A stretch of DNA of 64,000 nt, taken from Orobanche coerulescens. Its lineage: Eukaryota; Streptophyta; Magnoliopsida; Lamiales; Orobanchaceae. The stretch spans positions 144,443,001-144,507,000 of the forward strand of contig CM065815.1 of NCBI GenBank assembly GCA_033398695.1. Direction: 5' to 3'. Positions 5,470-58,850 of the stretch are shown here, piece by piece (positions within the stretch are counted from its first letter, which is position 1; each line of letters begins with the position of its first letter). The position numbers and the translations under genes are program-made. The notes below the pieces were generated by a model. It did no database searches. It was not told the DNA's origin and saw only the letters and a program-made list of their open reading frames with translations.

Positions 5470-5875
5470 ATAGACTGACCAATTCATTACATACGTTATA
5501 CACTATGGTTAACGTATGTAAGAGGCATTACGTACGCCATGCTAAGACATTAACGTACGTAATGAAAAATCCAGAACTAACTGGACTGAAATACGAAGGC
5601 CTTAACGTACGTAAACAAGAACTTATTACGTACGTTAACAAGACCTACATTACGTACGTAGAGCTCACCTCTTAACGTACGTAAGGGTTCGTTGACTGCA
5701 ATAGTGAGATCCGATCGGAAGATGCTCGGGACCCACCGGCCGAAAGTGACTGCGAGGAAGGTTCCTGCCACCTACCAAGCATTACATACGTAACCTTGCA
5801 GGCATAACGTACGTAATATCAACACACTAGCGTACGTAATGCTACACCCATAGCGTACGTTAAGGCTATGAACTT
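5470..5875. promoter_or_regulatory. Palindrome array TTACGTACGTAA in the solo LTR
   Basis: About a dozen exact or near copies of TTAACGTACGTAA, CATTACGTACGTAATG or TAGCGTACGTAATG are spread over 400 bp. On the minus strand they lie directly upstream of a TATA-like CTATTTATC (5465-5473), which is followed by TTTCATTTCC as in the other LTRs. The position suggests U3 enhancer or silencer sites. Protein binding is inferred, not shown. Confidence 0.7.
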
Positions 5876-10308: not shown

Positions 10309-10510
10309 GAACACGAGCAGGCCACACGAGCACGTGGTCGTGCGTGGCGCTCGTGCGCAATCCAGCGCTCGGCAGTGAGCTCCAAGGACGCACGAGCAGG
10401 ACACACGAGCGACTGCTCGTGCGTGGTGCTCGTGCATGGTGTCAGTGGATGGGAAGTGTCCTAGCGCACGACCAAACACACGACCACTTGGTCGTGCGTA
10501 ATGGTCGTGC
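10309..10510. promoter_or_regulatory. Hairpin array upstream of the element A promoter
   Basis: Several inverted repeats occur close together: CACGAGC-GACT-GCTCGTG (10404-10421), ACGACCA-CT-TGGTCGT (10480-10495) and the related CACGAGCACGTGGTCGTG (10328-10345). They end about 10 bp before the TATA box at 10520. The 3' LTR has the same array at about 15765-15970 with small changes. The word differs from the TTACGTACGTAA type but the placement is the same. Confidence 0.7.
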
Positions 10511-14940: not shown

Positions 14941-15340
14941 CTCCCTACTTGTTTTAAGTTTCGGGACGAAACTTCTTTTAAGAAGGATAATATGTAATAT
15001 CCGCAATTTTCAATTTTTGGTAATTTTTTTTGCAGGAGTTCGTTTTAACGGCTCGCTTGTGACCGTTTCATCATTCTGAGAATGTTTAATTCTGCCCTTT
15101 TTCTCATCCGAGTTCGTTTCGGTGTCGCTTTGTTGAGCTCTGTGTTCTTAAGCGACTTTTCCGCACTTGAGTTCGATTCTTGCGAATCTCATCGGAAATT
15201 ATTGTTTTGAGTTTCTCGTAAGTTCGTTTAACGTTATTAGTCATGTTGCGAGCTTTTGCTCGGTGTTTTGATCATGTATCGTGTATTTCGGTCGTTTGGA
15301 CCATTTCGTAATTTTCCAAAGTTTGGGGTGTTTGCCTTCG
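14941..15340 (+). repeat. Second internal polypurine tract and 5' fragment of a B-type LTR
   Basis: GTTTCGGGACGAAACTTC and AGAAGGATAATA lead to TGTAATATCCGCAATTTT at 14993. The next roughly 340 bp align with the first 340 bp of the B LTRs (27019 and 33533), for example GGCTCGCTTGTGACCGTTTC. The fragment then stops, and the true tract of A (15442-15454) and its 3' LTR follow. Confidence 0.85.
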
Positions 15341-15454: not shown

Positions 15455-18045
15455 TGTAATACCCGAGATTTTTGTTATGGTTACTTCGAATTATTCGTCG
15501 GTTGTGCCGGTCATTTTGTTTCGTTGAGAATTATTCAGGATTTTCCCTATGTTGTGTACCACGTTGTGGCGTTCGTCGGGTATGACTTGTTGTGTAAATC
15601 GTGCGGATCGTTTGCATGCATGCGTGACTTGGCATATTGTCTTCCGTTGTCGTTTTGTCTCTTGGAGGGCGTTGCGAGTCCTTGTTTTTGTTCCCTTTCG
15701 AGTTGGTTATATCCTGGGTACCTTCGGGGCCGTTTCGGGATCTATATTGGCCTCCTATTGTAGCACATGAGCAGGCCACACGAGCAAATGGTCGTGCGTG
15801 GCGCTCGTGCGCAATCCAGCGCTCGGCAGTGAGCTCCAGGGATGCACGAGCAGGACACACGAGCGACTGCTCATGCGCGGTGCTCGTGCGTGGTGTCAGT
15901 GGCCTAGCAAACGACCAAATACACGAGCACTTGGTCGTGCGTGATGGTCGTGCGTGATGGTCGTGCGTCGCTGATGTATTTAAGGGGACAGATGGGCTTT
16001 TCACCCCATTTCCTCCCCTTCTCCTCTTCTCCTCGCGGCTGTCGGACGGGTGAGACTAGGGTTCGAATTCTTGGTCAATTCTACTCAATTACAAGGTGTT
16101 TTCGGAGATATCTAGGTGATTGTAACATCATCTAATCCATTGTTCTTCAACGAATCAAGGTTAGATTTCCTACAAATCTAGTTTTAGGGAAATTGGGTAT
16201 TTTGTTTGATTTCGTCCGTTTAATCTGATTTAACCTAGATTAGTGATGGATTATTGATTATTAAGTTGTATTATACCAATTTCCTTGTTGTTCCATGGTT
16301 TGATTGTCAGGGATTCGTTGTTTTGTTGAATTCTTAATCGACGCCTTCAAGGTGTCCGGTAGGATGTCATAGAGGGGTTTTCGGACGTTCTACGTTTACT
16401 CTTCCTCGTATGATCGTCGATTTATTAATTATATGATGTTAGGGTCTAGTTTCTTGCGAAGAATCCGTGTTGAACCCTTCCGTTCGTCGTCGTCTTCATT
16501 TTCGATAGCATCGAGGGTTTCGAAGCTTCCCGGTCGAGCCATGTGCGACGGAGTACTTACGCGCCGATTTTGAGGCAAGTACCTTGTCTATACATTTCTT
16601 GTTTTGTGAATATGATGATCGGTGATCATCTAAATGTGTTTGTTTGGTTGTTTGAAACGGACTTTCAAAAGATTCGGTTAGCCTCGTTAAAGGCTCTCTT
16701 TCAAACCGTGTGTATTTTGTGATTGGTGTGTTTCGTAAACGATTATGTGAATCCTATGGATATGGTTGGTGTTGATGTTGCGCTTGATAATACGTGTGTA
16801 TGTATATTGCCTCATTTCGGTGCGTTATGGTTTGACGTTGTGTTTTGCTAAGTGTTTGATGCCTCTGGGTGAATTGTTAGGATATCTTTGTTGTAATGTG
16901 CTTTGCTCACCTCAGGAGGGTCCGTCGAGGCCTCGAGGGAATCTATGACTTCACTATGGATTCACGAGTTTGAGTATATGATTTGTTAATGTGCTTTGCT
17001 CACCTCGGGAGGGTCCGTCGAGGCCTCCAGGGAATCTATGACTTCACTCTGGATTCACGAGTTTGAGTATATGATTTGTGAATGTGCTTTGCTCACCTCG
17101 GGAGGGTCCGTCGAGGCCTCGAGGGAATCTATGACTTCACTCTGGATTCACGAGTTTGAGTATATGATTTGTGAATGTGTTTTGCTCACCTCAGGAGGGT
17201 CCGTCGAGGCGTCGAGGGAATCTGTGACTTCACTCTGCATTCACGAGTTGGTGTTGTATTTGTGTGACCAAGCTTTGCGTATCTTGGGTGATATGTTGTG
17301 TTGATTTTATGTCCGTCGAGGACACATGACGTGGGTTTTGACCCTGTGAATTATTGTTGGTTTTATTTGTGAAAACAAAACATTTGGGTTGTGACCCATG
17401 TTGATTTTGGAAAGAGAAGGATTCGAAAATCCTGAATTGTTTTCTATCAAAACTTCCGATGGCATTTGAAACCATTTTATAAATCCTTTCCATTGATTTG
17501 TGATCTTTCGATTTTGGAAAGCTTTACCTAAACTCTTGCCTCGGGAAGTATTTTCATTATGTTTGAATCTTTGAGGATTCCTGGTTATTATTATTCTTGG
17601 AACTTGAATTATATGACTCGTATTTTGCACTTTGTACTTACACTAGCAAAAGAGTGGAATTTTGCTAACCCCCGAGTAATCGGGGGGGTGGATGTCTGTA
17701 TTTGCATTCAGGTTTTGGGAGCATAACACAGGGTCGGCATGAAGGATGATGAAAGATGATCGATACTAATCACATGAGGACCCGTATATTGTTGTATTGG
17801 TTTGGTTGTATTTTATTCCGCTGCAGTATTTTCCCCGTTCTACGGGAGTGTGTTGTATTCGACCCGTACATGGGCATGTATTGAGATTGAGTTGTATGTA
17901 TTTATTGAAAGACCAAATCGGTCTACTGGGTCATTTTAGTCTTTAAGGTGATGTTTAGATGTTTGATTTTAGTTACCAGGCTGGTAGATTCTTGAGGAAA
18001 GGGTCTACGGCGTGTAATATCCCTGAGTGGATTGGGGGTGTTACA
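15455..18045 (+). repeat. 3' LTR of element A
   Basis: 2591 bp, 100 bp longer than its partner. Most of the difference is a fourth copy of the 93-bp repeat (starts at 16897, 16990, 17083 and 17176). The TATA box GTATTTAAGG is at 15976-15985. Substitutions against the 5' LTR are frequent (around one in 20-25 bases over the first 170 bp by eye), so the insertion is not recent. Confidence 0.9.
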
Positions 18046-19297: not shown

Positions 19298-21249
19298 TGT
19301 AACACCCCCAAGACGATCAGGGCATATTACAGCCCCGTGGACCCCACACATTGGAATCCACCAGGCTAACGTACCAACACGACATTTGACAAAGACAAAC
19401 ATCATTAACACACAGAAAATTTCTCAATCCACGACATTCAAAACAAAAAACCAAAATTTGACAATATAATTCGACATCAAATCCACTCCCAAAACGGGTA
19501 CACAATATTAATAAATTTAAGAAAGAAGTACTCGAGAACTTAAGCAAATGACATAATAAATAAACTCCAGAAACAAAACACCAACGGACAACCACTTAAC
19601 AGAATCACGCTTGCCCATCATCCTCGTACGGATCGCATGCTCGTTTACTTCCATGACCTGTACCTGAAATACAAAAGTATTTCCCCCATTTAAGGGGTTA
19701 GCGACAACTGCTAGTGCAAGTACAATCCATTTGAACAACATTCTAATCAGATGAAAATATGCGCCAAAAGTCATTTTAGAAATCATTTTTATTCTGTAAT
19801 ATTCACGGTGCACAAGCACAAAACACATTTCTCCAACAAAACAATTCAATGTTAACCGTTGGTACGAGACTCACGGCCACAGTACCCCGCATAGCCCCAT
19901 AGGACATCCCTGGGTGGTTAACCCTAGTTCGTGATATGCACACACACGACAATACGTATCCCTAGAGGCCCCGTCGGACCGTCCCTAGGTGAACATACAC
20001 ATATCCATCCACAACAACCACGAAAATCCGTAATTCAAATACTAGAACATATAAACAAATGTAAAGTACTTGCCTTTGAGACATCTTCGACGAAACGGGA
20101 ATGAACAACGACTACGAATGATCCGGAGGGAAAACGACCGTTCCTAAACGAAGGATTAACATAACTCAGTCCTATACGATAACAATAATCGAATGGAATA
20201 CGCCCACAACCCCGATTACAAGCTATGACATTATAGGTTCAATCGATACGGGCGAGGGTTTACGCAAAATCTCCCCGAATCGATAATTCCTGGATTAAAC
20301 TCGATGAAATCGTATTGGGAATCACCCGATAACAACAATCGGTAAGGAGTAATACAACATACTTGAACAATTCGAGATTAATCAAGCAAAACCCGAAAAA
20401 CCTCCAAAATTGACAAAGTTAGGGTTCTAAGCCAATTACCTCAGATTCAGACGGTGTAAGGTGATTTCGTTGATGATAATATGATACCACGACACTACGG
20501 TGATGGAAAATGAAGAACACCTAGATCAAGAACGGTGGAAATCGCTCCTGGAGGATTATTGGTGTCGCCCGACGAAAGAAAGACGAAGAGGAGATGAGAA
20601 ATGAGGTTCTGACTTCTGCCCGCTGTCTTAATACAGCGGGCTGTTACGGTCGTAATAGGGGCTGCCTTATGGCCGTAACAAGGCCAACATTACGGCCGTA
20701 ATGAATGGGGTGTTACGGCCGTAATACCCGACTGGACAGCAATCTAAGAAGCTGTTGTCCGAACAGTACCGGACGACTTCAAAACTCGGACCTGCTATCG
20801 AACCAAAAATATGGTTACGAAGTATTCTCGATGACGAACCTAAGCGTTAAAAGTAAACACAATTCCAATTCCCCGAAGGTTCGGAATTCGACGACGAACG
20901 TAAATTTCCCTTAAGTTTAAGAAAATTACAAAACGGCCCAAATATTCGAAAATCACGATACAACGTCGGATTGACAAACCAAAACTCACAACACGAACAA
21001 ATCAACCATACAAACTTATGTAAACAAAGAAACAACGAAAACGAACGATTTTAACGAGAATCGAACGTACATACGGCAAAACATAACATAGAATGGAATT
21101 ATGTAAAAACATCTCTGAAACTCGTCCAAATGGAAAAACTCCAAGAATAAAGTAGATTCAAAATGCCGAAACGGTTACAAGAGAGTCAATAAAAATAGAC
21201 ATACACCAAAAATGGAAACTGCTATAAATGAAAAGGTACAGATGTTATA
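19298..21249 (-). mobile_element. Solo LTR, Tekay-like, 1952 bp
   Basis: The plus strand begins TGTAACACCCCC and ends GATGTTATA (minus-strand start TATAACATC, a mutated TGTAATACC). GTACT is duplicated at 19293-19297 and 21250-21254. No internal region is present. It has a TTACGGCCGTAA array and a hairpin TATA region on the minus strand. It is the most diverged of the three solo LTRs. Confidence 0.88.
20619..20740 (-). promoter_or_regulatory. Core promoter hairpin and TTACGGCCGTAA array of the solo LTR
   Basis: On the minus strand an array of TTACGGCCGTAA-type palindromes (20641-20735) is followed by CCCGCTGT-ATTAAG-ACAGCGGG, an 8-bp-arm hairpin with a TATA-like loop. Downstream comes CTCATTTCTCATCTCC, like the start-site region of B. 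Promoter role is inferred from position. Confidence 0.65.
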
Positions 21250-25020: not shown

Positions 25021-26014
25021 AACAATCCACAACGCATATCAATAACACCACGTTCACATACCTCAAGGAGATAAACTTCTCGAACAACACCAAAAAGCAC
25101 TACCTCCTTACAAAGGAGTCAGCAAACAATACAACCAATATCACACATCACAATACTCATCAATAAGCACACACATCCCCACACACACACCTTTCCGAAA
25201 GGATATAACTCTAAGTCCACTAGCAATATAGCCATGCACAACGATACCACATGAAAACAAGGCATTACAACATACAAGACTAATACACATTTTCAGAACG
25301 ACACATTCGTTTACAATACACAAGTTCATTTTGAAGAAAACCTTTATCGAGAATATACTGATTCTATTGAAAGTTCATTAAAAACATTCAAATTGAACGC
25401 ATAGTCATTTACCAGCTATTACATCTATGAAACACGAAATATATGGGCAAGATATTTGCCTCGATAATCGACACACAAATACTCCGATGAACACGACTTG
25501 ATCGGTGAACCACGACAACCTACAACCTCCAATTAAACAATGGAAACACGATCACTACGTATATAGAAACCAATTACAACGGTAAACGCACCCAACACTT
25601 GAAGGGAAAACCATGAGATATTTAATCGAACATTAAATGTTCATGGTTCCTTAAGAACACCAAAATCATCAACTGGGTTGAACGAATCGGAACTATGAAT
25701 ATGCAATCCATAGAACGTGATCAATAAAAATGTTTAACAATGATCGATTCAAAGAAATCGGATTAGAAACGAGATCAAGAACAAAATCCCAAAAAGGTCA
25801 ACTTTAGGAAATCAATAAAAATACCTCGATCCGATGAAGAACAACCGATTAGATGATGTTACAATCACCTAAGACCCTCGAAAACACGTAGGAATTGAGT
25901 AGAATCAACCAAGAATCCAAACGCTAGCCTCACTTGTCCGTCGACCGCGAGAAGAAGAGAAAAAAAAGGGGAAATGAGGTGAAAAATCTGTCCCGCAGAT
26001 TATATAATTAGACT

Positions 26015-26250
26015 GCATTACGTACGTAAGCTACATAAGCTTAACGTACGTTAATTGTTAACATACGTAAGAGCTTGTACATTACGTACGTAAACGCATT
26101 CCAGAACTTACAGCCCGATTCTCAACATATGATAACGGTCGTAACACGCTGGCCTTAACGGTCGTAACACGCTGGCCTTAACGGCCGTAATGAACTAGCC
26201 TTTACGACCGTAACATACTGCAGGTTACGACCGTAACCTGCTGTCCGGTC
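26015..26250. promoter_or_regulatory. Mixed palindrome array in the solo LTR
   Basis: Two kinds of word stand together: TTACGTACGTAA and TTAACGTACGTTAA (26019-26095), and TTACGGCCGTAA, AACGGTCGTAA and TTACGACCGTAA (26130-26245). Two units of TTAACGGTCGTAACACGCTG are exact copies about 29 bp apart. The array ends near the minus-strand TATA at about 26000. Confidence 0.7.
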
Positions 26251-27018: not shown

Positions 27019-27409
27019 TATAATATCCGCAATTTCGATTTTTGGTAATTTTTTATTTGCAAGAGTCCTTTTTGACGACTCGCTTGTGACCGTTTCGTCA
27101 TTCCGAGAATGATTAATTCTGCACTTTTTGACATCCGAGTTCGTTTCGGTGTCGTTTTGTTGAGTTCCGTGATCTTAGGCGACTTTTCCGCGCTTGAGTT
27201 TGATTCTTGCGAATCTCGTTCGAAATTGTTGTTTCGGTTCTCTTGCAAGTTCATTTAACGTTGTTATACGTGTTGTGAGCTTCGGTTTGGTTATTCATTG
27301 TCGTTTCGTGATTTTTCGGACGTTTGGGGTCGTTTTGTAATTTCCCAAAGTTGTGGGTATCCGTCATCGTGCTCATTTTTTTTTTGAGAGTTCTGTTGCT
27401 GTCTTTCCG

Positions 27410-27765
27410 AGTCGATAGCACGCGCTAAGGTGTTGTAGTTAGCGCATGCTACGGTTGTGGTAGCGCACACTAACTGGTAGTTCGAGGCAGTCCAGAAGCT
27501 ACTGGACTAGGACTGGGGTCTCGTTAGTGCACGTTAAGGTTGGTAGATAGTGCGCGTTATCGTCTGCTTAGCGCACGCTATTTGTCCTGTCTAGTGCACG
27601 CTACCTGGTAGGTGCAGTTTTGTCCAGGAGTCACTGGATTGGATCCGTGACTCATTAGCGCACGCTATGCTTATTGGCTAGCGCACGCTAACAGTGTTAC
27701 AAGCGGCATGTTTTGGAGCGTTGACCCTGTTAGTGCGCGCTAATGGTGTTTAGCATAGGCTAATA
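27410..27765. promoter_or_regulatory. TAGCGCACGCTA palindrome array, 5' LTR of B
   Basis: About eleven copies of TAGCGCACGCTA or close variants (TTAGCGCATGCTA, TTAGTGCGCGCTAA) are spaced 20-60 bp apart. A second near-palindrome, AGTCCAGAAGCTACTGGACT, is at 27489-27508. The array ends at the TATA hairpin. The 3' LTR copy (45965-46305) has gained and lost single palindromes. Confidence 0.75.
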
Positions 27766-27767
27766 AA

Positions 27768-27791
27768 CTGTCCAGTATAAATACTGGACAG
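27768..27791 (+). promoter_or_regulatory. TATA box inside a perfect hairpin, 5' LTR of B
   Basis: Eleven-base arms CTGTCCAGTAT and ATACTGGACAG flank AA, so that TATAAATA forms the tip. The 3' LTR keeps it unchanged at 46312-46335. GCGGGCTTTCTTTCTCATTT follows, the probable transcription start region. Confidence 0.8.
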
Positions 27792-33679: not shown

Positions 33680-34579
33680 TGTTGTTACCCAAAATATTAT
33701 CCGGAGATGATATGCTGGAATTGACGAGTAACAAACAAAATGCGAGAGCACGTCTGTGGGGAAATAAATAACACAAGATTTGCCGGGGTTGTTAGTTCCG
33801 GGATTGAATGCTCTCGCGAGATATTATTAATATGAATACTGGTGAGTACAAATATTAATGTTAGAGTTCAATTACAATGAGTGTAAAAGACCCTAGTTAT
33901 CTTAGCTCCTGAGTGCTGAAGATTGCCGGAAGAACCAGAGTTGAAGCTCTGTGAGTTCTTATTACAAAGATGAGGAGTTCTCTGTGTTTTTTGCTGTGTG
34001 TAATCGTGTTAACGTCGTAACTCTCTCTCGCCAATGCTGGAGGCCTCCTATTTATAGGAGAAAAGGTTGTTGGGATGTCCCTGTCCACCGCGGGCGATCG
34101 TCGTTCCTGCATTTAATTAAGGCGGGCGATCATTCCAGCACGTGGGACTGTTTCTTTAAAGTCCGCAGCTCCTGCTGGCAGCCAAACGTGCGAACCAATG
34201 AGGAGGCGCAGGGGCCTCTTCTCGCTGCCTTGTGAGGTCCCACCTAGGACCTTTAGGCGGGTCTGTCGGTAGGTGAGGCCGTCCTTATCACTGACAGCTG
34301 CTGATGGGCTGGAGTAGGGCCTGTTCTTGCGGCGCCTTTTGCGGATCTGCTCGTGGGTCTTCACCCGAGATTCGGTCTTCGCATACTTTGACGGGTGTCG
34401 GATTCACACGTGGCATGGGACGGCCGTCCCCGGTCGGACAATAGAGGCGATCGCCAGATGCCAATAGGCGATCGTCTTGGATGTCGACTGCTAGGCATTT
34501 TGCCCAGCTTCTGTCTGCTTTGGTTGGCTTCCGACCATCATGCCGATCGCCATCGAGGCGTATAAAACGCCGCACAACA
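33680..34579 (-). repeat. 3' LTR of element C
   Basis: 900 bp. Minus strand TGTTGTGCGGCG to GGGTAACAACA. A TATA box lies in CTCCTATTTATAGGAG (34045-34060, 7-bp arms). GGCGATCGCC is at 34446-34455. Confidence 0.92.
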
Positions 34580-34590
34580 ATTTCCCCCCA
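34580..34590 (-). other. Polypurine tract of element C
   Basis: Minus strand TGGGGGGAAAT directly before the 3' LTR. Confidence 0.85.
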
Positions 34591-34950
34591 GCTCGCTCTG
34601 TTGTCGAAGACGTGGGGTGAGGTGGCTCTGTTGGAGATCGCTTGTTTTAGACGAGTGAGTCATCTTCTTATGAATCGGACGATCATCTCCGGACGAACTA
34701 ATTTTGAATTTGGCCGATCTCCTCGGACGTTGGAAATAGCGGGAAGTGGAGGCGGGCTTTGAAACGTCAATGGGACACGCGTCGCGCTCCCGTTGGGGGA
34801 GTTCGACGGTTTCTGTCAGACTTGTCATCTGGCGTGCCCTCGAAACGATGCGTATGCAGTTTTCGAGGGCTGCATTAAATGCGGCTCACCCGATGGTTGC
34901 ACTTCAGCCCTCGAGATTTCGCTTATTTGCCCAGAAGTCCCTGCTCTCGC

Positions 34951-34960
34951 CTATAAAAGG
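34951..34960 (+). promoter_or_regulatory. TATA box of the antisense gene in element C
   Basis: CTATAAAAGG lies 150 bp upstream of the ATG at 35102, just inside the 3' LTR of C and on the strand opposite to gag-pol. It is a strong consensus plant TATA box at a fitting distance. Confidence 0.7.
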
Positions 34961-35101
34961 GGCTAGGGTACTGGGGTTAGATCTTTATGCGCTCTTGCCT
35001 TTAGAAGAAGACTTAGCTAAAATTTCTTGAAGCTTCGTGCATCGATCTACGTTCTCTCTAGGTAAGAACAAAATCTTCTCTGCCCCCTTTTCTCTTCGAA
35101 C

Positions 35102-37760
35102 ATGTCTGGAGGAGGATCCACCGTGTATGAGGTGGGTAGCACTTCCGCCGCCGCGACTTCGCCTGCCCGGGATGAAACCTCCGTGGATTTCCACGTAGAG
35201 ATGGCCATCGAGGCCATTCGCGCTGGGATTGAACCCGCGGAGGTTGAAGAGCTTTTCAACGAGGCTGACGCAGCGAGGTCGTCGTCGGCGGAGCAGAAGC
35301 GCTAGCCGGTAGATAAGGATGAGGCAGTGAGACTGTATTGGGAGAAGAATAGTGTGTTTGGCCGGGCCTTTCTGGAATTTGCCGAGCTTATGGAGAGGCT
35401 GGCCGGACCACGACCTCAGTTTGATTTTCGCGCATACTCGGTCGCCCACCCCTATGAGCCCATAAAGCGGACGTCATTTCGGGCCGCGGACCGCTCCCCG
35501 TGGACCCTCGGCCAGCTCAGGAGTTCGGCGACTAAGAAGGACTTGAGTCGTTGGAGGACGGAGTTCCATGTCCCCTCCGATGTTTCACTGTATGTGCCCG
35601 CTGAGAACGAGCGCGCCGACCAACCTCCCGAGGGTATGGTCGCCGTTAACGAATTGATCATGGGGGCCGGATTGCGGTTCCCATTGCCGTTCGCCGTGTC
35701 ATATCTGCTGACCTCCTGGAATGTGGCGCCGCTCCAACTGACGCTGAACGCCTGGTTGCAGATCGTCAGTACTTTGACTCTTGTTGGCGGTCACTGGCTG
35801 TTCCGTCTTCCTTCTGCACTGGAAATGAACTACCTTTTTAATCTGACGGCGCAGAAGGGTTCAGTTGGCGGCTACCACATTCAGGGTCGCATGGGCCGGG
35901 TGGTCCTTGGGGTGCCGAACAAGGTCCGGGGCGACCTGACAAAATGGTGTTGGGTCAGCGGAGCGTGGAAGTCGGCGGCGAGTGATAAACCCGAGGATGA
36001 GTTGGACATCCCCACCGGCTTTCGGGAGAGGAATCCAGGTAAGGGTTTTAACTCTCCCTTTGTTCAGATACACCTTGAACTGATCTAATTTGGTTTACTT
36101 TTTGCAGGCTCTCTTGTTCCAGCGGTCGGCGACCTTTCATTTGACTTTTCGATCGTCTGGGAGTGAATCCTTAGTCTTCCGGACAACTACATCGACGCTC
36201 GCGTGATCAGCAACGAAGCTCATTGGTTGGGTGCTCGGTTGTTTCGCTTTCCCCGCCACTTGAAGGTCCAAGGTACAAATGTTTACGATATCCTTTCTGC
36301 TTGACGATCGCCTTTGATTGAAAGAGATGTCTAACCTAGTTGAATGTATTCTTTGATAGAGATCTACTTCCCCCGCTACTCCGAGCCTCCGAGAGAGATT
36401 GCTATGTCGAACCCTGGCCTTATGAATCATCTCCGCCAAGGGAAGAAGGCGGGCTGTGCCCCTGCAACGACGACCCGTCCTATCCCCGATGCGAGACCTC
36501 TCATGGCGCCGATCGTCGATCCGGAGGCTCGGGAAGAGGAGCAGCTTCAGCGCAACCGCAAGAGGTGGAGGCCGGAGGAGCCCTTGCCAACTGTTGTTGC
36601 TGAGGCGTCCGTAATGGTGCTGCCGGTCGCCGCGCCTCTTATTTCTGCTGTTCCAATGGTGGAGGGGCCTACGCCCTCATCGGCCTTCCTACAGGCCATG
36701 GCGACCGCTGACGCCCAGACTCCGTGGGGCAAGCCTTATTTCGGCCGCGACCCCGAGAAGGTCGAAAGGTAAGATTGGTTGATCTTGTTGAGTTAAGCCA
36801 TTTGTGTAGGGGGCATACTAACTCCTTTGTTCTTGTTGCAGGGTCCGCCTTGCCGACCCGAACTGCTCGCCGATGGTGTTGGACTTCCTTGCGATCAGAT
36901 CTCCTCGCGAGCCTAGCGACGTCCCTCACTATGTCTCTCGGACTATCTTCTCCCTACCGAAGGCTTGGACGACCGACCTGGATGCGATCGCACGCCGGTG
37001 GTCCGGAAACGCGATGCAGGCGACTCTTTCCCTGACCCTCCAAGCGGCGACGATGGACACTCAAGCTGTAAAGGATTATGAGGGGCGACCCTCTACTGCC
37101 CGTCTCCATTCGGACCTCGAGGCTGCTCGGAGTCGGAACGCTGAGTTAGTCGACAGGATTGCGACGATGGAGAATGAGTATGCTGAGACGGCCAAGCAGG
37201 CTAAACAGGATCTCGACCGGATGAGGCAGGAGCTCGAACGGGCCCGGGCGGCGACTGATCGGATGCGCGATCAGATGACGGAGGCCTGTCGGTTGCATGC
37301 GGCCTCGTAGGAGGAGGCGACCGGGCTAAAGGCGGTGGTGGATCCGTTAAATGGTGAGTTGGAGTCGTCGAAGGGGGAGCTGGCTGCCAAGGTTGTCGAG
37401 CTCCAGGATGCGGACAAAACCATCGCGGGGCTGAAGGAGAAGTTGGAGGCGACTGAGGCCGATCCCTTCCTTAACGTGGAGTACGTCGGTGAGTTTGCAT
37501 ATTACATGGCTTATGCTGACGCCAACCGCGCTTCCAAAAAGGGAGGGCTCGAGGTCGTCCCTCTGATCGATAACTTCAAAGCCTACGTGCTTGAGCATCC
37601 TCTGCAGCCGTCCAACTTTGTGTCGATCCTTGACCTCACCGACCTCGGAATCGACCTGAGCTGGTATCCGTCGCCGGACAAACTCGTTCATCCAGAAGCC
37701 GTCGAGGAAGCGCACGCCGATCTAGCTGTTGGTGACGAAGGCCAGGAGGGGGAGGCCTGA
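35102..37760 (+). pseudogene. Antisense extra gene of element C, four exons, putative gypsy-type transposon protein
   Basis: Exons 35102-36038, 36108-36272, 36360-36768 and 36842-37760, with GT-AG introns of 69, 87 and 73 bp, join to 810 codons with no frame change. Stops interrupt at 35303-35305 (TAG), 36164-36166 (TGA) and 37308-37310 (TAG). Exon 1 holds a domain like the plant putative gypsy-type transposon family (Pfam Transposase_28, from memory): NELIMGAGLRFPLPFAVSYL, then LQLTLNAWLQIVSTLTLVGG. Exon 3 has a basic stretch (RNRKRWRPEE). Exon 4 has a long heptad coiled coil (LHSDLEAARSRNAELVDRIA onward) and a conserved-looking end (SILDLTDLGIDLSWYPSPDK). The function of the family is unknown. 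Similar extra genes are known in Tat elements. It is not a host gene, as it lies within the element's LTRs. Confidence 0.82.
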
Positions 37761-38815
37761 GTCAGACCGCTTTCATTTTGTTTCCCCTTGTAATTTTTCA
37801 GTTTCTTTGTGTTTTGCCTTCGGGCGTATGTACAAATAACTTGAATGAAATAAAATACATAATTGCATCTGATTTCTTGTTTGTATGATCATCTGTCTGA
37901 ATGTTTCGCATTTGACTTTACACAAGTGTTTGAGGAGCGGCTATTGTATGAATAGCTCCGAATGTATTGGTATACTTAAAATTCTTACTTGTAAATTTCT
38001 GAACAAAACCGATCGTCATATGTTTGTTTGAACAAAGCCGATCGTATGTGGTTCCGTCCTCCTGATCGCATGTATGGATCCGTTTTGCCCCTTGTTTTGT
38101 GTACTTGGTGAAAGTAAGGGAACGAAAATAATTCGTTTAGTGAGCTATCTTTAGTTTGGTTCTTGCGATCTTCAATTTTGTTGATTCCTCGATGGAGGCC
38201 GAACGTCCCGTCCTGGACAGACTTCGCATAGTTGTGGGGTTCGATGGAACCGACCTCCACGACTATGTCTTGTGCGCGAGCGACATTCCGTCTGATGGTT
38301 AACTTCTCGCAACTCACTTAATTGAAAGGGTCCTTCGTAGGCTACGTTTTGCCTCGCAAAGTAGCGATGGGGCGGACGGTATCTGCCTGGAGGATTCCTT
38401 GCACGGGGCGCCGTCGGATCAATCGACTTCGCTACTGTGGCTTGTTAGCACTTTTCTGCCTAAGAGGGCATACGTTGTGATGGGGGAAAGGACGCGATTG
38501 CTTGCCTAGGTCCATCAGGTTAGATGAAGGATCCGAGGACGGGCGAGCGTGTCCATTGATCTATTTTGGAGGATCCTTCGACTACGCCCGCCTCGTATTT
38601 AAATGAAAGGGCGGGCGATCTCTGCACAAAGGAACCTAGCATGTCGGGCTATCGGTTCCATCGACTCCCAGAACCATGGCTGCACTTTTCTACCTCGGAT
38701 CACCATGTTAGATGACGGTCTTCGACGGTATACGTTGTGCTAGGGGGCGATCGCTTGCATAGGTCCATCAGGTTAGATGACGACCTCTTGGAGGGCGAGC
38801 GAGTCGCCCTCTTTT
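37761..38815 (+). other. 3' end of the antisense gene and duplicated untranslated region
   Basis: A poly(A) signal AATGAAATAAAAT (37845-37857) lies about 90 bp after the stop. Further on, a block of about 255 bp is partly doubled: ATACGTTGTG ... GGTCCATCAGGTTAGATGA occurs at about 38468-38525 and again at 38726-38780. No gene on either strand. Confidence 0.6.
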
Positions 38816-38869
38816 TTATTTGTTTGTTCTATCGAGGCGAATCATATAGAGGGGATCGGAAAATCTCAT

Positions 38870-39898
38870 TAAGCTCTTTGTACATTGGGTAACTAAATAC
38901 ATAGTTTTTATTGATAGTATTTCTTCAAATGTACGGAGTTCCAGGGATATTGGTCCAGAGTGCCGTCTCGGTGTTGGAGTTCGTAGGCTCCTTTGGTCAG
39001 CCATTTGGATATCCTGAAGGGTCCCTCCCAATTCGGGCCAAATACTCCCGTGTGAGTCTGGACCTTTTTGAGGACTAGGTCGCCCACTTAGAATCGCCTT
39101 TCCTTGACTTTTGAGTTGAAGAATTTCTCGGATTTCCTTTTGTGGATTGCGTTCTTCATTTCCGAGGTTAGTCGTCGCTCCTCGAGAATATCCAAGTCGA
39201 TCCGTCAAGCTACATCATTATCCGTCGTCATTTCTTGTTCAGTTTGGTGGCTGAGGACGGCGATCTCTGATGGGATCACTGCTTCTATTCCGAAGGCGAG
39301 GGCGAATGTGGTTTCGCCGGTTGAATTTTGGGTCGTCGTTCGGTAGGACCACAAAACATCCGGGAGCTCGCTCACCCATCGTCCTTGTTTGGATCTGAGT
39401 CTTGCTTTGATCGTGTGTTTGAGAATCTTGTTTACAGCCTCTACCTGCCCGTTCGTCTGAGGGTGGTAAGGGGAACAGTTTTTTAATTCCCCATTTCTCG
39501 CAGAATTGCATAACTTCCAAACCGTCGAACTGCTTTCCGTTGTCGGAGATGATAGCCTGTGGTAGACCGAATCGGCATATGATGTTCTTCCAAATGAACT
39601 TGATTACTTGTTCTTAGCCGATCTTGTTGAGTGGCTCGGCCTCAGCCCATTTCGTGAAATAATCGACCCCCACGATGGAAAATTTACATCCCCCTGGCGC
39701 CGTTGGCAACGGACCGATGAGGTCGATGCCCCATTGGGCGAACGGCCACGATCTGTACATAGAAGTGAGCTGCTCGGGGGAGAGCTTGATGTTCGGGCCC
39801 ATCACTTGACACCTGTGACAAGATCGGGCGTAGGCGATTGCGTCTTTTTGTAGGGTAGGCCAGAAAAAACCTTGTCTGGTCGTCTTGTGGATAAGAGC
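38870..39898 (-). pseudogene. Tat-type integrase, broken
   Basis: The zinc-finger half (ARSCHRCQ-like, at about 39830), the core start (WGIDLIGPLPTAPGGCKF, FSIVGVDYFTKWAEAEPL), the second-aspartate region (ISDNGKQFDG, about 39530) and the later core and C-terminal part (YELQHRDGTLVQ, near 38940) are recognisable in more than one frame. At least two stops and a frameshift near 39470, at a run of T bases, break it. Confidence 0.82.
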
Positions 39899-42000
39899 TC
39901 ATCCTCCAACGTGATTTCCACAGATCCCATCATGGATTTCGGCTAAAACAAGTCGGCCTTCCTCCGGCGTAATGCACTTGAGGAGAGGAAAGCTGAAAGC
40001 TCGCTTGTAAAACCGGTCGTCCAATAGAGTGTATCTGGTTGCTCGGAGCTGAAGCTGGCGAGCTTTGATCCGATCTGCGGGGACCATTCCGTCCTTCAAG
40101 TATTTAATGAACGAAGTCATCCAGTTCTCTTCGGCGATGGCAACCGTGGTGACAAGGCTTCTTTCGATCGCCGATTTCACTGACTTCGTGATTTGGATGT
40201 TAGAGAAGTCTGCCGCCCCATCTGACGATGCGTGTTTGGATAGGGCATCAGCCTGGGAGTTGTGCTCTCTCGGGACTTGTTCGATCAGCACTTCTTCAAA
40301 CTTTGTGCACATTTCGGCGACCAATTCTTGATATTTGATCATCTGTTCGCCGCGCGCCTCATATTCCCCCTTGAATTGGTTCACGATTAAGAGGGAGTTC
40401 ATGAAGATGTGGAGGCGACGAACATCCATGGCGAGTGCTAGATCGAGCCCGCCTACCAAGGCTTCGTATTCAGCTTCATTGTTGGTCGCACGGAACCCGA
40501 AACGCACAACATTTGTAAAACTTTGGCCGTCGGGGCTGATGAGGACAATCCCTGCCCCTGCTTGCGAGCTGGTCACCGAGGCAGGACGGCCGACCTGGGT
40601 CGGACTGGGCGGGAACGTTAGTTCCACCACGAAATCCGCCAGAGCTTGGCCTTTGATCGCCGTGCGAGGAGCATACGTGACACCGTATTGGGCGATATCC
40701 AGTGACCACTTGAGGAGTCGTCCATTGGTGTCTGGTCGGTGCAGAACTTGCCTTAGGGGGAGAGTCGTCAGAACCTCCACTTGGTGTTCGAAGAAGTAAG
40801 CCCTCGGCTTGCGAACACTCATTACTAATGCATAGGCGAGCTTCTCCAGAGGCGTGTAACGCGTTTCCGTGTCACGGAGCGCTTGACTAACGAAGTAGAT
40901 CGGCAAGTAGGCTTGCCCCTCTGCTCGCACTAATACAGCGCTCAGCGCGACCTCTGAGGCTGCCAGGTAGAGGAATAGCTTTTCGCCGGGGATTGGTTTC
41001 GCCAAAATTTGGGGATTAGACAGGTACTCCTTGATTTTGGAGAACGCTATTTGGATTTCCTTCGTCCATGCAAATTTCTTATTCTTTATGGTGGCGAAGA
41101 ATGGCTTGCTTTTATCTCCGAGCCGAGAAATGAAACGGTTAAGGGCTGCCAGACAACCCGTGAGGCGTTGCACCTGTTTGACATTCCGTGGCTCCTGCAT
41201 GTCGAGGATCGCCTGGATCTTGGTGGGGTTCGCCTCGATCCCCCTTTTGCTCACGATGTGCCCCAGGAACTTTCCGGAGCTTACCCCGAAGTTGCATTTC
41301 TTGGGGTTCAGTTTCATGTTAAATTTCTCGAGGATGGCGAACGTCTCGGCAAGGTCTTTGAGGTGATCTCCCTTTTTGAGGCTTTCGACCATGATGTCGT
41401 CAATGTAAACCTTCATGGTCTTGCCGATCTGGTCGGCGAAAATCCCGTTGACTAGTCGTTGGTAGTTCACCCCCGCATTCTTCAGACCGAACGGCATTCG
41501 TACCCAAAAGTACACGTCTTTTTCCGTGTGGAATGACGTGTGTTTTACGTCTTTCTCCGCCATTGGAATCTGATGGTACCCGGCGAAGGCGTCCATAAAC
41601 GACATCATTTCGCAACATGCCGTGCTATCGACCAAGTGGTCAATATGAGGCATCGAAAAGTGGTCTTTCGGACATGCTGTGTTGAGGTCAATGAAATCGA
41701 TGCATAACCTACATGAGTTGCTCGCCTTTTTGACGAGCACCGCGTTGGCTACCCACTGTGGCTCCTCGGTAGCTACTCCGCTTAGTTTGTTGTTGAGTAG
41801 CTTTTTGACTTCTACGTCGAGCGTAGCGTACTTCTCAGGACCGAATTTCCTACGTTTCTAGTGAACAGGCTTCCTCGCCGGGTCGATCTTTTGATAGTGG
41901 CAAGCGTGTTCAGGACTGATGCCGACCATATCTTGATGCTACCAGGCGAAGATTCCGATGTTCCTATGTAGTAAACTGATTAGATCGTCTTTTAACTCGG
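39899..42000 (-). pseudogene. Tat-type reverse transcriptase with two RNase H domains
   Basis: The open frame 39899-41740 (613 aa) starts within the first RT motifs. The preceding LLNNKLSGVATEEPQWVANA continues upstream in the same frame to about 41860, where a stop cuts it. RT signs are SFMDAFAGYHQIPMAEKD, VRMPFGLKNAGVNYQRLVN and the catalytic YIDDIMVES. The first RNase H is LYLAASEVALSAVL with THE-like spacing, in which the usual aspartate is missing. The second, archaeal-like RNase H carries GAGIVLISPDGQ, NNEAEYEALVGGLDLALAM and PREHNSQADALSKHAS. The frame ends at HDGICGNHVGG, the start of the integrase finger. Confidence 0.88.
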
Positions 42001-42054
42001 GACCGACACTTGAGCCGATCTGCACTTCCCGCTCCGGGCGAGCCTGATCGATTG

Positions 42055-43620
42055 TTATACTTTCCAACTCTTCAATGGGGATGGTTGCTTATCGTTTGGA
42101 ACGACTGCGGACTCGATCCTTGGATCAATATCGAGGCTTGGCTCAAAACTGATCCTTGGATCGATGTCATCCGATAATTGTTGCGAGAGGCCGTCCTCTG
42201 AGTCGGGTTGGTATGAGGTGCTTGGCTCGTCGTTCTCCATTGGTTGAATGTCGATCGCCTCAATGTTATAAATAATATGGGAAACGTTTAAAGAGGAAGT
42301 TACGACACAGGTGTAACTCAAACATTTCTTTGCCATTAGCTGGTCTCCTTTTACAATACCGACCGTCCCATCGGTAGTGGGGAACTTGATACAGCAAAAG
42401 AAAGAAGAGGCGACCGCCTCAAAGGTTTCTAGAAAGGGGCGACCTAGGAACCCATTATAGATGCTAGGCCTATCTATGATTACAAAATTGAGGTTCCTAG
42501 TGATCCTAACCTTGGGATCGTAACAGCATATTAGCTCGACAGAGAGCTTGATCCTTCCATAGGCTTGGACCGTGTTGTCGCCGAACCCTTGAAGCACGGT
42601 ATCAAATGGCTTGATGAACTTGGTCAGGTTGCCGAGCTGGTCCAGAGCAGATTTGAATATGATGTTGCAAAAGCTTCCATTGTCAACCAGCACGCGGTCG
42701 ACCATTTTCCCAAGGATACATGCAAAGATTACCAATGCATCCTCTTTGGGGCACTGCACTCCCTCCCTATCCTTGTTGGAGAAGGTGATGAGCGCGTCTC
42801 TGGAGATGGTCGGCTCTAGGGGCACCACGATATGGACTCCGGCGAACGCCCTCAGCTCGGCCTTCCACTTTCTATTTGATATGGTGGAAACCGGGGAAAG
42901 GCCTCCGAGGTTTCCACCTCCCGACTGAAGCATATTGATCCGGCCGCCGGGGTTGATCGGAGGGATTGACTCGTCTGAGTACTCCGGCTCGTTTTGCTCA
43001 ATCCTGGTGACCGGATTGGGAGGTATTCCGTCGTTCTGTCGGCGATCGCGCCCCCCGGTCCTTTCTGCCTGGGGTTCTGGCTTGGTCACCAAATTGTCCA
43101 ACTTGCCTTTCTCGAACAATCTCCATAGTTGTCTGAGGAGGTCGCGGCACTGGCTGGTGTTGTGTCCGGGACTTTTGTGGTAGGCACAAAATTTGCTGCG
43201 GTCCAGATGACCGTTGTCCCTCATCGGAATCGGCTTTCTAAGCCACTCGCGCCCCTTGATGGCGTTGAAAATATGGGCTGGAGACAGATTGAGGTTGCGG
43301 AGGAGGTGAACTTCCACATCCTCGAAGGCCTTGAACTCACCGGGCGGCTTTGCGACTGCCTTTCTGGGTTTGGCGACCGCCTTCTTCGGGATGGGAGATG
43401 GCGCCTTCCCTTCTCCGGTAGATCCCTCGCCTATGCGAAGGGTGAGCATCCTCTGCCTGGCCAGAAAGTCGGCGGCCTTGACGCGGAAGATCGCGTAGGT
43501 TGGGGGGATGTCCTTCGTGAGGTGCCTGAACATGGCTGAATGGCCATAGAATCCCCCTAGGACCGAGTAGAGGGCGAGCTCATCACTAATGGGCTCGCCA
43601 ATGAGGACTATTTCATCCAC
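42055..43620 (-). CDS. gag: Tat-type gag C-terminal part and protease
   Basis: A 521-aa open frame. It begins inside gag (GFYGHSAMFRHLTKDIPPTY, FRVKAADFLARQRMLTLRIG), passes a zinc-knuckle-like CAYHKSPGHNTSQCRDL and a GRINMLQSGG linker, then enters an aspartic protease with RVLVDNGSFCNIIF (VDNGS is usual in Tat elements) and NFVIIDRPSIYNGFLGRPF. Its start is not natural: gag continues upstream after a stop near 43655. Confidence 0.85.
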   Translation of the reverse strand: MDEIVLIGEPISDELALYSVLGGFYGHSAMFRHLTKDIPPTYAIFRVKAADFLARQRMLTLRIGEGSTGEGKAPSPIPKKAVAKPRKAVAKPPGEFKAFEDVEVHLLRNLNLSPAHIFNAIKGREWLRKPIPMRDNGHLDRSKFCAYHKSPGHNTSQCRDLLRQLWRLFEKGKLDNLVTKPEPQAERTGGRDRRQNDGIPPNPVTRIEQNEPEYSDESIPPINPGGRINMLQSGGGNLGGLSPVSTISNRKWKAELRAFAGVHIVVPLEPTISRDALITFSNKDREGVQCPKEDALVIFACILGKMVDRVLVDNGSFCNIIFKSALDQLGNLTKFIKPFDTVLQGFGDNTVQAYGRIKLSVELICCYDPKVRITRNLNFVIIDRPSIYNGFLGRPFLETFEAVASSFFCCIKFPTTDGTVGIVKGDQLMAKKCLSYTCVVTSSLNVSHIIYNIEAIDIQPMENDEPSTSYQPDSEDGLSQQLSDDIDPRISFEPSLDIDPRIESAVVPNDKQPSPLKSWKV

Positions 43621-43656
43621 CCGATCGATGTAATCTTCGTCGGGCTCGTCCTTCCC

Positions 43657-44674
43657 CTACCTAATCTTCATCATGCGGTGAGGACCTTCTGTCCGAGCGA
43701 CTTTGGCGGTGAAATATGACGTGAAGTCATTCGCCAGTTTCTCGAAATAGTTGATTGAGTGCGGTGGAAATGAGATGTACCACCTATGGAAAAGATCGCC
43801 CAGTGTTAATGGAACATTCGGCATTTCGTCGCGTCCGATGCCCCGCATCCGGTCATGTAGATCCGGAACTTGCTCAAGTGGGTCTCAGGGCCTGATCTCC
43901 CCTCATATAAAGGTGTTTGAGGAGGAGCGATCTTCGGTTGCACGGGGGCAAGCTTGATCTGGACCGCGAGCGGCTCACTCGGTCCAGCGATCGATCTCTT
44001 GGCGCCTGCCCCAGTTTCTATGAGCGCCTTCATTTCGTCGAGCTGGCGCTGCATTGGGGCCATTGTCGTAGCCTGACTGCTCGCGGTTTAGCTCTCGGAG
44101 TGGGATACGAGGCGATCATATACCGATCTCCTGGCCCCGTGGTAGGTGATGAGGTCTCTGTCGCCGAGCTCAATTCTTTGGTGAGCGAGAGACAGACGAC
44201 CGGCTTATCTTCTGGGAGTTGGGTACGCCGAACTCCTGGTGATGGATTCGGACTCCGATGTCTCACGGCTGGGGCCCGAATGCCCGGGTTGCCATGAGGG
44301 ATCACTCCCTAGGCGGCTGAAGACGAATCGTCCCGCCTTACGAGCGCCATTTCCTGCGGCTCGGGGCTTTTTGACGATTTCTCAACATATAGCCCCTTGA
44401 GCTTCCGCTTGCCAGCACGGCGGATGGCTGATGGAGTAATGGTGGGCGAGTCGCATGCTCTCCGTCGCTCCCTTAGGATGGCCATGGCCTCCTCGATCTA
44501 TTTTGCGGTTTGGAACTGATCGAGTGAGAGGTTGGGGCCGTCCCTCGGGGGCGGGAGTGAGAGTCTAGCGTCACCGCGGTCGCCTTACGTCGCATGTTAG
44601 GACTCTGCCTGGGCCGGAATAAGGTGTCCGGCAGATCGTAGAGTGGCTCTTTTCGAGGTCGTGGTAGACGTCAT
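43657..44674 (-). pseudogene. gag: Tat-type gag N-terminal part
   Basis: Likely start MTSTTTSKRA at 44674, 112 bp after the primer site. Pieces in three frames follow (44030-44305; 43806-44063 with MAPMQRQLDEMKALIETGAG; 43657-43848 with LGDLFHRWYISFPPHSINYF). Frameshifts near 44060 and 43830 and several stops break it. Confidence 0.75.
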
Positions 44675-44785
44675 GATTCTGAAGGTTTTTCTTTGAAAAA
44701 CAGTGAGTGTTTCTTCAAGTATATGCTCCGGAGAACAGTGAGTGTTCTTCGAAACGGTCGGAAAGAAAATGAAGGTAGACGCACC

Positions 44786-44801
44786 CCTTCCTCTAGCGCC
44801 A
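44786..44801 (-). other. Primer-binding site of element C
   Basis: The minus strand reads TGGCGCTAGAGGAAGG, two bases after the 5' LTR. The TGG start fits a tRNA CCA end. The tRNA is not the one used by the Athila element and I do not assign it. Confidence 0.7.
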
Positions 44802-44803
44802 AT

Positions 44804-45703
44804 TGTTGTTACCCAAAATATTATCCGGAGATGATATGCTGGAATGAACGAGTAACAAACAAAATGCTAGAGCACGTACGTGGGGAAATAAATAACACAA
44901 GATTTGTCGGGGTTGTTAGTCCCGGGCTTGAATGCTCTCGCGAGATATTATTAAAATGAATACTGGTGAGTACAAATATTAATGTTAGAGTTCAATTGCA
45001 ATGAGTGTAAAAGACCCTAGTTATCTTAGCTCCTGAGTGCTGAAGATTGCCGGAAGAACCAGAGTTGAAGCTCTGTGAGTTCTTGTTACAAAGATGAGGA
45101 GTTCTCTATGTTGTTTGCTGTGTGTAATCATGTTAACGTCGTAACTCTCTCTCTCTCTCGCTAATGCTGGAGGCCTCCTATTTATAGGATAAAAGGTTGC
45201 CGACGCCCTCGTCCACCACGGCAATCGCTGCCTCGCATTTAAATAAGGCGGCGATCGTCCCCAAAGACGTGGGACTGCTTTCCTTAAAGTCCGCAATGGC
45301 CGGGCAAGACGTGCGAACCAATGAGGAGGAGACAGGTGCCTCTTCTCGCTGCCTTGGGAGGTCCCACCTAGGACTTTTCGGCGGGTCTGTCGGTAGGTGA
45401 GGCCGTCCTTATCACTGACAGCGGTTGATGGGCTGGAGTAGGGCCTGTTCTTACGGCGTCTTTTGCGGATCTGCTCGTGGGTCTTCACCCGAGATTCGGT
45501 CTTCGCAGACTTTGATGGGTGTCGTATTCACACGTGGCATGGGACGGTCGTCCCCGGTCGGACATTAGAGGCGATCGCCAGATGCCAATAGGCGATCGCC
45601 TTGGACATCGACTGCTAGGCATTTTGCCCAGCTTCTGTATTCTTTGGTTGGCTTCCGACCATTATGCCTATCGCCATCGAGGCATATAAATCGCCGCACA
45701 ACA
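44804..45703 (-). repeat. 5' LTR of element C
   Basis: 900 bp, same ends as the other copy. The TATA palindrome at 45175-45190 has one changed base. GGCGATCGCC occurs twice (45570-45579 and 45591-45600) with CAGATGCCAATA-type spacing. A CT microsatellite has grown at 45145-45159. Confidence 0.92.
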
Positions 45704-45964
45704 GTTGAGTTCCGTGATCTTAGGCGGCTTTTCCGTGCTTGAGTTTGATTCTTGCGAATCTCGTTCGAAACAATTGTTTCGGTTCTCTTGCAAGTTCATT
45801 TAACGTTGTTATACGTGTTGTGAGCTTCGGTTTGGTTATTCATTGTCGTATCGTGGTTTTTCAGATGTTTGGGGTCATTGTGTAATTTACCAAAGTTGTG
45901 GGTACTCGTCATCGTGCTCATTTTTTTTGAGAGTTCTGTTGCTGTCTTTCCGAGTCGATAGCGC

Positions 45965-46335
45965 ACGCTACATCCAGGTGGATAGTGCGCGCTAAGGTGT
46001 TGTAGTTAGCGCACTCTACGGTTGTGGTAGCACACGCTAAATGGTAGTTCGAGGCAGTCCAGAAGCTACTGTACTGGGACTGGGGTCTCGTTAGCGCACG
46101 TTAAGGTTGGTAGATAGCGCACGCTATTGTCTGCCTAGCGCACGCTACCTGGTAGGTGAAGTTTTGTCCAGGAGTCACTAGACTGGATCCGTGACTCGTT
46201 AACGCACGCTACGCTTATTGGATAGCGCATGCTAACAGTGTTACAGGCGGCATGTTTTGGAGCGTTGACCCCGTTAGCGCGCGCTAATGGTGTTTAGCGC
46301 ATGCTAATAAACTGTCCAGTATAAATACTGGACAG
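45965..46335 (+). promoter_or_regulatory. Palindrome array and TATA hairpin, 3' LTR of B
   Basis: Same promoter module as 27410-27791. It has one extra palindrome (near 45965-45995, around CATCCAGGTGG) and lacks another present in the 5' LTR near 27590. The TATA hairpin (46312-46335) is unchanged although the sequence around it has diverged. Confidence 0.75.
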
Positions 46336-57272: not shown

Positions 57273-57287
57273 ATCTCCCCCTTTTTG
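57273..57287 (-). other. Polypurine tract of element G
   Basis: Minus strand CAAAAAGGGGGAGAT directly before the 3' LTR, the usual copia form. Confidence 0.88.
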
Positions 57288-58579: not shown

Positions 58580-58850
58580 TGTCGATTGCGTGCGTTAGGA
58601 AGTGTGTTTGTGTGCCTGGGTAGTACGGCATATATATAGTCAACGAACTTTTAGTTAGCGTACGCTAGGGTTTATAGAATTAGCGTACGTTAGGCAGAAA
58701 AGAAAGGCTTACTGGACTGTCCAGTAGCTAGATTGGAATTCGAAAAATTTTAAATTAGCATACGCAAGAAAGTAGAGTTTAGTGTACGCTATCGAAAGCA
58801 AATTTTAGCGCGCGTTAAGAAAATGAAGCTAGCGCGCGCTAGCGAGTGAT
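58580..58850 (-). promoter_or_regulatory. Likely promoter of the extra gene in G, with a palindrome array
   Basis: On the minus strand seven palindromes (CTAGCGCGCGCTAG, TTAACGCGCGCTAA, CTAACGTACGCTAA, CTAGCGTACGCTAA and variants) precede the TATA box ACTATATATATGCC (58630-58640), about 125 bp upstream of the ATG. TACTGGACAGTCCAGTAAG (58710-58728) is a further palindrome. The layout copies that of the LTR promoter. Confidence 0.65.

Follow-up and report, generated by a model that had tools for sequence, protein, structure and literature searches.

A 64-kb stretch of the Orobanche coerulescens genome (assembly GCA_033398695.1, contig CM065815.1, positions 144,443,001 to 144,507,000; hereafter the window) raises the question of what is read by the arrays of CG-bearing palindromes that stand just ahead of the TATA boxes in the long terminal repeats (LTRs) of its retrotransposons. 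These arrays are found in gypsy LTRs, in LTRs of Sirevirus type and in front of an additional open reading frame (ORF) of element C, a Copia element of the window with the sequence marks of a Sirevirus. We consider it about an even chance that they are multi-site promoters or enhancers for a dimeric sequence-specific protein, most probably the VANC-like product predicted from this extra ORF, or close relatives of it.

Density, pitch and position of the sites

The window holds 50 exact sites of the pattern TWRCGNNCGYWA, whereas 200 dinucleotide-preserving shuffles, made per 1-kb block, average 0.585 and never exceed 3. All except a lone site at 9603 (49/50) fall into seven clusters (Table 1). 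The words and their positions upstream of TATA boxes, as reported by the original prediction, are real. Its wider statement, that almost every LTR family here carries such arrays, is to be corrected for a GC-rich LTR element of 12 kb (33680-45706), nested in the 3′ LTR of the gypsy-type element B, which has no exact site. Adjacent exact sites of the window that are no more than 30 bp apart follow each other at 23 bp in 16 cases, at 24 bp in four, and at 21 and 25 bp in one case each.

The same features were found far beyond the window. The genome (3.65 Gb in 1279 contigs) contains the word TAGCGCACGCTA 510,633 + 507,111 times and its reversed form 23 + 33 times. Twenty random 10-kb stretches, taken from contigs C1-C19, gave 143 exact sites in 15 stretches, with two sites for the reversed-pattern control and a mean of 1.65 (maximum 5) in 60 shuffles. 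Palindrome density relative to shuffled controls, a test set beforehand, is thus far above expectation in the window and in the sample, and a chance origin of the sites is excluded. Counting as an array at least four sites, with one mismatch allowed, the sample has 23 arrays; 66 of the 162 gaps between their neighbouring sites measure exactly 23 bp, where random placement yields 3.5 on average and at most 12 (2000 runs). An outward-facing TATA box is found no more than 60 bp from the array end in 17 of the 23 (11–14 bp in 11 of those), compared with 698 of 5000 random intervals of equal length. The 23-bp pitch, like the array before the internal ORF, goes beyond the original prediction.

A constant step of 23 bp could also be left by functionless tandem duplication of one 23-bp unit, and one local stretch (26133-26179) does have identical spacers. 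Elsewhere the spacers are unlike each other: identity inside the window arrays is 28–35%, and the 66 spacers of the 23-bp gaps in the sample have a pairwise identity of 27.1% (0.271, 2145 pairs), near chance. Information content reaches about 1.6–1.9 bits in the word columns and 0.2–0.8 bits in the flanks, and the same grammar of steps recurs with unrelated spacers (see below). Simple tandem duplication was rejected on these grounds and has hardly any probability left.

The commonest words of the sample are TAGCGCACGCTA (35), TAACGTACGTAA (21), TAACGTACGTTA (13), TTACGTACGTAA (10) and TTACGGCCGTAA (10), together 89 of the 143 sites. Mixed words exist, among others TAACGTACGCTA and TAGCGTACGCTA (eight each). 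The dyad-paired positions 3 and 10 agree in 118 of the 143 sites (A/T in 62, G/C in 56) and are mixed in 25. A further CG palindrome, GTGCCGCGGCAC, is arrayed at L017:8340-8640, L021:4139-4400 and L021:9532-9790 of the sample, with some pairs about 21–24 bp apart, and perhaps represents another word class.

Element C and its extra ORF

Element C lies on the minus strand; its 3′ LTR extends from 57272 to about 55.7 kb and its 5′ LTR is cut by the window end. Its Sirevirus marks are the polypurine tract AGGGGGAG followed by AT/TG and a C-rich run near the LTR ends. Several copies of the tract are typical of Sireviruses between the pol/ENV region and the 3′ LTR; C has one there, and each of six clade-I relatives has three (the clades are described below). 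Both LTRs of C carry a C-rich run, CAACCCCCC, 25 bp before the LTR end, where the published signal stands at about 21 bp (the comparison covers the run within that 19-bp signal). The 5′ LTR junction, CA/GTTGG-TATCGGAGC, differs from the published CA/ATTGG-TATCAGAGC by one mismatch in the linker and one in the primer-binding site (PBS).

The extra ORF of C occupies, by position alone, the site of the optional Sirevirus ENV-like ORF. The protein is predicted to adopt a VANC21-like fold followed by a long C-terminal helix. Against the Pfam family PF20167 (‘Putative plant transposon protein’) it scores 38.6 bits, short of the gathering score (45), which its clade-II homologue P0025 exceeds with 55.2 bits. 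DUF1985 was not among the Pfam matches listed for the proteins examined, a sequence search of the PDB with the ORF protein did not recover the VANC21–DNA structure 9lnj, and wider protein searches, whose reach is set by shared 5-residue words, gave no homologues beyond Orobanche. Ahead of the ORF stands the second array of C, with a putative internal promoter (Table 1).

The words differ between two ORF clades

A first look through the genome gave 9268 candidates for the window ORF and 11,177 for P0025; scoring covered only 106 of the former and 103 of the latter. P0025 and the window ORF are 38–41% identical; clade II comprises the scored genome copies found with P0025, which are 60–65% identical to it. 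The words were compared in the DNA preceding the ORF of eight clade-I and ten clade-II copies and in the 3′ LTRs of six copies of each clade (first 1300 bases of the clade-I LTRs). At least four sites precede the ORF in seven of eight clade-I copies, the exception being L032, and in all ten of clade II.

In the LTRs of clade I (103 sites), position 3 is G in 72, A in 30 and C in one, position 10 is C in 91 and T in 12, and the top word is TAGCGCACGCTA (48); in those of clade II (67 sites), position 3 is always A, position 10 is T in 64 and C in three, and the top word is TAACGTACGTAA (36). Among the pre-ORF sites, those of clade I (46) have C at position 10 in 45 and A in one, with G in 24 and A in 22 at position 3, and those of clade II (68) have T in 54, C in 10 and G in four at position 10, with A in 67 and G in one at position 3. 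Given the position-10 counts, the right half-site (CGCTA versus CGTAA/CGTTA) tracks the ORF clade both in LTRs and ahead of the ORF; the left half-site and the two central bases do so more loosely. Since the copies within a clade are near-identical, the comparison amounts to a single contrast between two clades. By our patterns, a TATA box follows the pre-ORF sites in 7/8 clade-I copies but in only 3/10 of clade II, which makes the internal promoter less certain in the latter.

The steps between sites are ordered as well. The succession 23/24-18/19-23/24-51/54, each time with unrelated spacers, was found before the ORF in all ten clade-II copies, in four of six clade-II LTRs, in the Sirevirus-like LTRs of L023 and L026:7799, in the gypsy LTR of L016 and in several other LTRs. 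Before the ORF it runs in the direction opposite to that in LTRs, as the palindromic nature of the sites allows.

Use of the same code by gypsy elements

The sense word of Copia element C, TAGCGCACGCTA, is identical to that of element B, whose gag (PF03732) is of gypsy type. Four arrays of the sample (L010, L013, L016 and L026) immediately follow a pol match of gypsy type that has their own strand; the stem GGACGAAACT and the TGTAATA that starts the LTR come before the array in all of these except L026, and a TATA box follows 12–21 bp past the last site in all four. The pol match ends about 135–230 bp short of the stem in three cases and, in L026, about 420 bp short of the array, and these short gaps leave no room for an ORF of the size of the extra ORF. 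A restriction of the code to one superfamily is excluded by its presence in gypsy and Copia LTRs alike. The scope of the original prediction, Tekay-type LTRs, was accordingly too narrow, for one of the families is a Sirevirus with two arrays and the same word.

Overall LTR homology was considered as the source of the shared words and ruled out. The U3 regions of B and C share only pieces of 17–45 bp, and B can be aligned with the 2.6-kb LTR on either side of the array (27076-27380 and 27804 on) but not inside it, and the two use different words. Similarly, L019 of the sample can be aligned with the 1.95-kb LTR on the flank farther from TATA; the arrays of these two do not align, and their words differ too. 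Flanks that align around arrays that do not, with differing words, point to the array as a module of fast turnover.

The occurrence of the same words in gypsy elements lacking the ORF is also what one would expect if the reader were a family of dimeric host transcription factors, whose paralogues prefer slightly different words, and if LTRs had converged on, or swapped, promoter modules; the ORF would then merely lie behind such a promoter. One grammar with unrelated spacers in many LTRs, the placement of arrays where activator sites are expected and the existence of mixed words fit this explanation, and the TTACGGCCGTAA arrays, which have no known ORF partner, also favour it. It accounts less well for the different words of the two ORF clades and for an ORF, within the same system, with a product of predicted similarity to a DNA-binding protein of transposable elements. 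We regard a host factor as the principal competing explanation, possible but less probable than a reader encoded by the Sirevirus ORF.

CpG decay

Among 45 single-mismatch sites near exact ones, 28 differ by C-to-T or G-to-A at the two CGs, and one shows another change there. This predominance of CpG transitions is the signature left when methylated CpGs decay. The CGs have thus carried methylation in copies undergoing decay, and an anti-silencing protein would have to act against it. The original prediction had offered methylation or silencing as an alternative role of the dyads. Only the transitions in decayed sites speak for it, and the dyads could chiefly be targets, of symmetric CG methylation or as hairpins giving rise to small RNAs, maintained from the host's side in an arms race. 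Silencing alone, however, leaves the pitch and the TATA position unexplained: an element should shed such targets rather than keep 4–20 copies at a 23-bp pitch beside its TATA box, and hairpins need no pitch. We hold this explanation to be improbable. In its favour, a 2016 study by Bousios and colleagues is reported to have tied palindromes in maize Sirevirus LTRs to the host epigenetic response.

The CpG observed/expected ratio is 1.61, 2.03 and 1.83 in some arrays, 1.03 and 1.16 in the 5′ and 3′ LTR arrays of B and 1.07 in the whole window. Being raised in only part of the arrays, it makes ‘CpG island’ a poor description of them.

A proposed reader of the arrays

Dyad symmetry, the strict 23-bp pitch, unrelated spacers and clade-specific words fit a dimeric DNA-binding protein that co-evolves with its sites, as the original prediction had suggested, and the extra ORF now supplies a candidate for which binding is inferred. 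In the mechanism we propose, the ORF protein would bind each 12-bp dyad, probably as a dimer, through half-sites CGCTA in clade I and CGTAA/CGTTA in clade II. Sites repeated every 23–24 bp beside the TATA box would be filled by the protein, and the loaded array would keep the LTR promoter active or unmethylated. The ORF's own promoter might likewise be activated or de-silenced and, because it has the same kind of sites, positive feedback could arise. The gypsy elements, without room for the ORF in the cases seen, may have gained the same sites, through which they would be trans-activated.

More broadly, and somewhat short of an even chance, Sireviruses and through them other LTR elements may run an anti-silencing system of VANC type. 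The ‘envelope-like’ gene would then be a palindrome-reading activator that feeds back on itself, with a word of its own in each lineage, exploited by gypsy elements and served by more than one million sites in one genome. If true, this would join two old puzzles, since the ENV-like gene would encode the reader of the repeated motif (RM) boxes of Sireviruses, and a single binding assay could test both the box and the gene puzzle. Sequence-specific anti-silencing, known from DNA transposons, would then also exist in LTR retrotransposons, and the spread of both superfamilies through the 3.65-Gb genome would have a possible cause, in that elements sharing the code could be co-activated.

Features of the window

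Table 1. Arrays, TATA boxes and related features of the 64-kb window, with the number of bp between the last site and the TATA box in the sense direction
Feature	Position	Strand	TATA box; distance	Remarks
Exact-site clusters	5551-5851, 20644-20713, 26018-26225, 27569-27679, 45959-46275, 56378-57166, 58586-58830			Wider with one mismatch or more allowed
Array of 4.0-kb LTR	5487-5862	-	5465-5472; 14 bp	12 sites, words TTACGTACGTTA/TAACGTACGTAA
Array of element A, 5′ LTR	10312-10509	+	Before TATTTAA	Three dyads, each of four CACGASC words, steps 13(12)-11-13
Array of 1.95-kb LTR	20644-20724	-	TATA-like, 20626-20633; 10 bp	4 TTACGGCCGTAA sites in exact 23-bp steps
Array of 2.6-kb LTR	26018-26236	-	TATA-like, 25999-26007; 11 bp	9 sites: 4 TWACGTACGTWA + 5 TTACGRYCGTWA (23-bp steps)
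Array B5, 5′ LTR of gypsy-type element B	27416-27762	+		11 TAGCGCACGCTA-type dyads, in stretch 27410-27791
Second dyad W2, RTCCAG-N6-CTGGAY	27490-27507	.		Midway in 64-bp gap of array
TATA box, B 5′ LTR	27776-27783	+	13 bp	Past last site of B5
Array B3, 3′ LTR of B	45959-46306	+	46320-46327; 13 bp	11 sites; nested insertion splits B
Array in 3′ LTR of element C (Copia)	56378-57177	-	56332-56339; 38 bp	20 sites, sense TAGCGCACGCTA
AGGGGGAG polypurine tract, then AT/TG	57275-57282	-		Sirevirus signature at 3′ LTR start
Extra ORF of C	57342-58508	-		388 aa, between pol and 3′ LTR
Second array of C, before extra ORF	58586-58841	-	TATATATA, 58631-58638; 17 bp	7 sites, one of them past TATA; putative internal promoter
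Copia pol ORF of C	59388-61697	-		gag-pre-integrase, rve, SH3, RVT_2

The TATA box of B is centred in a longer dyad, CTGTCCAGTAT-AA-ATACTGGACAG (27768-27791, and again at 46312-46335), and in the 1.95-kb LTR CCCGCTGT-ATTAAG-ACAGCGGG surrounds the TATA-like box (20624-20645); in these LTRs the TATA box may itself be part of a dimer site. Copies of the dyad W2 were also found in arrays at 27622, 46057, 46166, 56830 and 5569, 31–33 bp (once 21 bp) from the flanking sites, and the dyad is common to gypsy B and Copia C. Away from arrays it has two 11-of-12 matches, at 41201 and 57613. With at least 11 of the 12 fixed bases required, there was none in the 200-kb genome sample, so W2 may be a local trait of the families of the window.

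As originally predicted, element A uses a different code, that of the CACGASC words. In its 3′ LTR (15779-15965) the code is partly decayed and stands again just before TATTTAA. The R/U5 part of the A LTR is homologous to that of B, and inside A, ahead of its 3′ LTR, about 340 bp (14995-15329) resemble the start of the B LTR (27021-27358, 82%). The LTRs of the GC-rich element (33680-34582 and 44804-45706) are 91% identical and have a TATA-like box within CCTATTTATAGG.

Comparison with known systems

The original prediction knew of no named element of this description; the boxes are, however, of a known kind, the RM boxes of Sireviruses (Bousios et al. 2010, PMC2829016). According to the parts of that paper that describe them, RM boxes are palindromic and CG-bearing, number 8 to 32 copies per element and stand in the LTR shortly upstream of TATA and again upstream of the ENV-like gene; they are called Sirevirus-specific there, and the authors were unable to name a factor. 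The sites described here resemble them in being palindromic, in standing before TATA and before an ORF in the ENV position (20 + 7 sites in C), and in a word that changes by element while the architecture stays constant. The CGG-CCG core of RM boxes is present in the TTACGGCCGTAA word and absent from TAGCGCACGCTA and TAACGTACGTAA, most words here being of the form CG-NN-CG; Tnd-1 likewise lacks the core in the 2010 table. Unlike RM boxes as described, the arrays also occur in gypsy LTRs (L010, L013, L016, L026), and to the 2010 account, whose RM-box passages mention neither a fixed pitch nor a binding protein, we add the 23-bp pitch and a candidate protein. Among the open-licence papers searched, the use of the code by gypsy elements, the 23-bp grammar and a VANC-like reader were not found in print.

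Additional sense ORFs (ENV-like) between pol and the 3′ LTR are described for plant LTR elements (Vicient & Casacuberta 2020, PMC7264820), and the ORF of C agrees with them in orientation and place. Those ORFs are compared there with retroviral ENV, a role called ‘highly controversial’ in the literature quoted, whereas the product of the ORF of C is predicted to be DNA-binding-like and has boxes ahead of its gene.

VANC proteins form the anti-silencing system of VANDAL (Mutator-like) transposons, as the consulted sections of two papers set out (Hosaka 2017, PMC5735166; Sasaki 2023, PMC10398659). That system belongs to DNA transposons, and the present one to LTR retrotransposons; its targets are tandem repeats with YAGTATTAY, and those considered here are palindromic CG words at a 23-bp pitch with diverged spacers. 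Unlike VANC proteins, the ORF protein has no DUF1985 match at the sequence level and is known from its sequence and predicted fold. As in the VANC system, the motifs are family-specific and vary with the protein, here in two ORF clades (n = 2) with two words, which would be the targets of their respective proteins.
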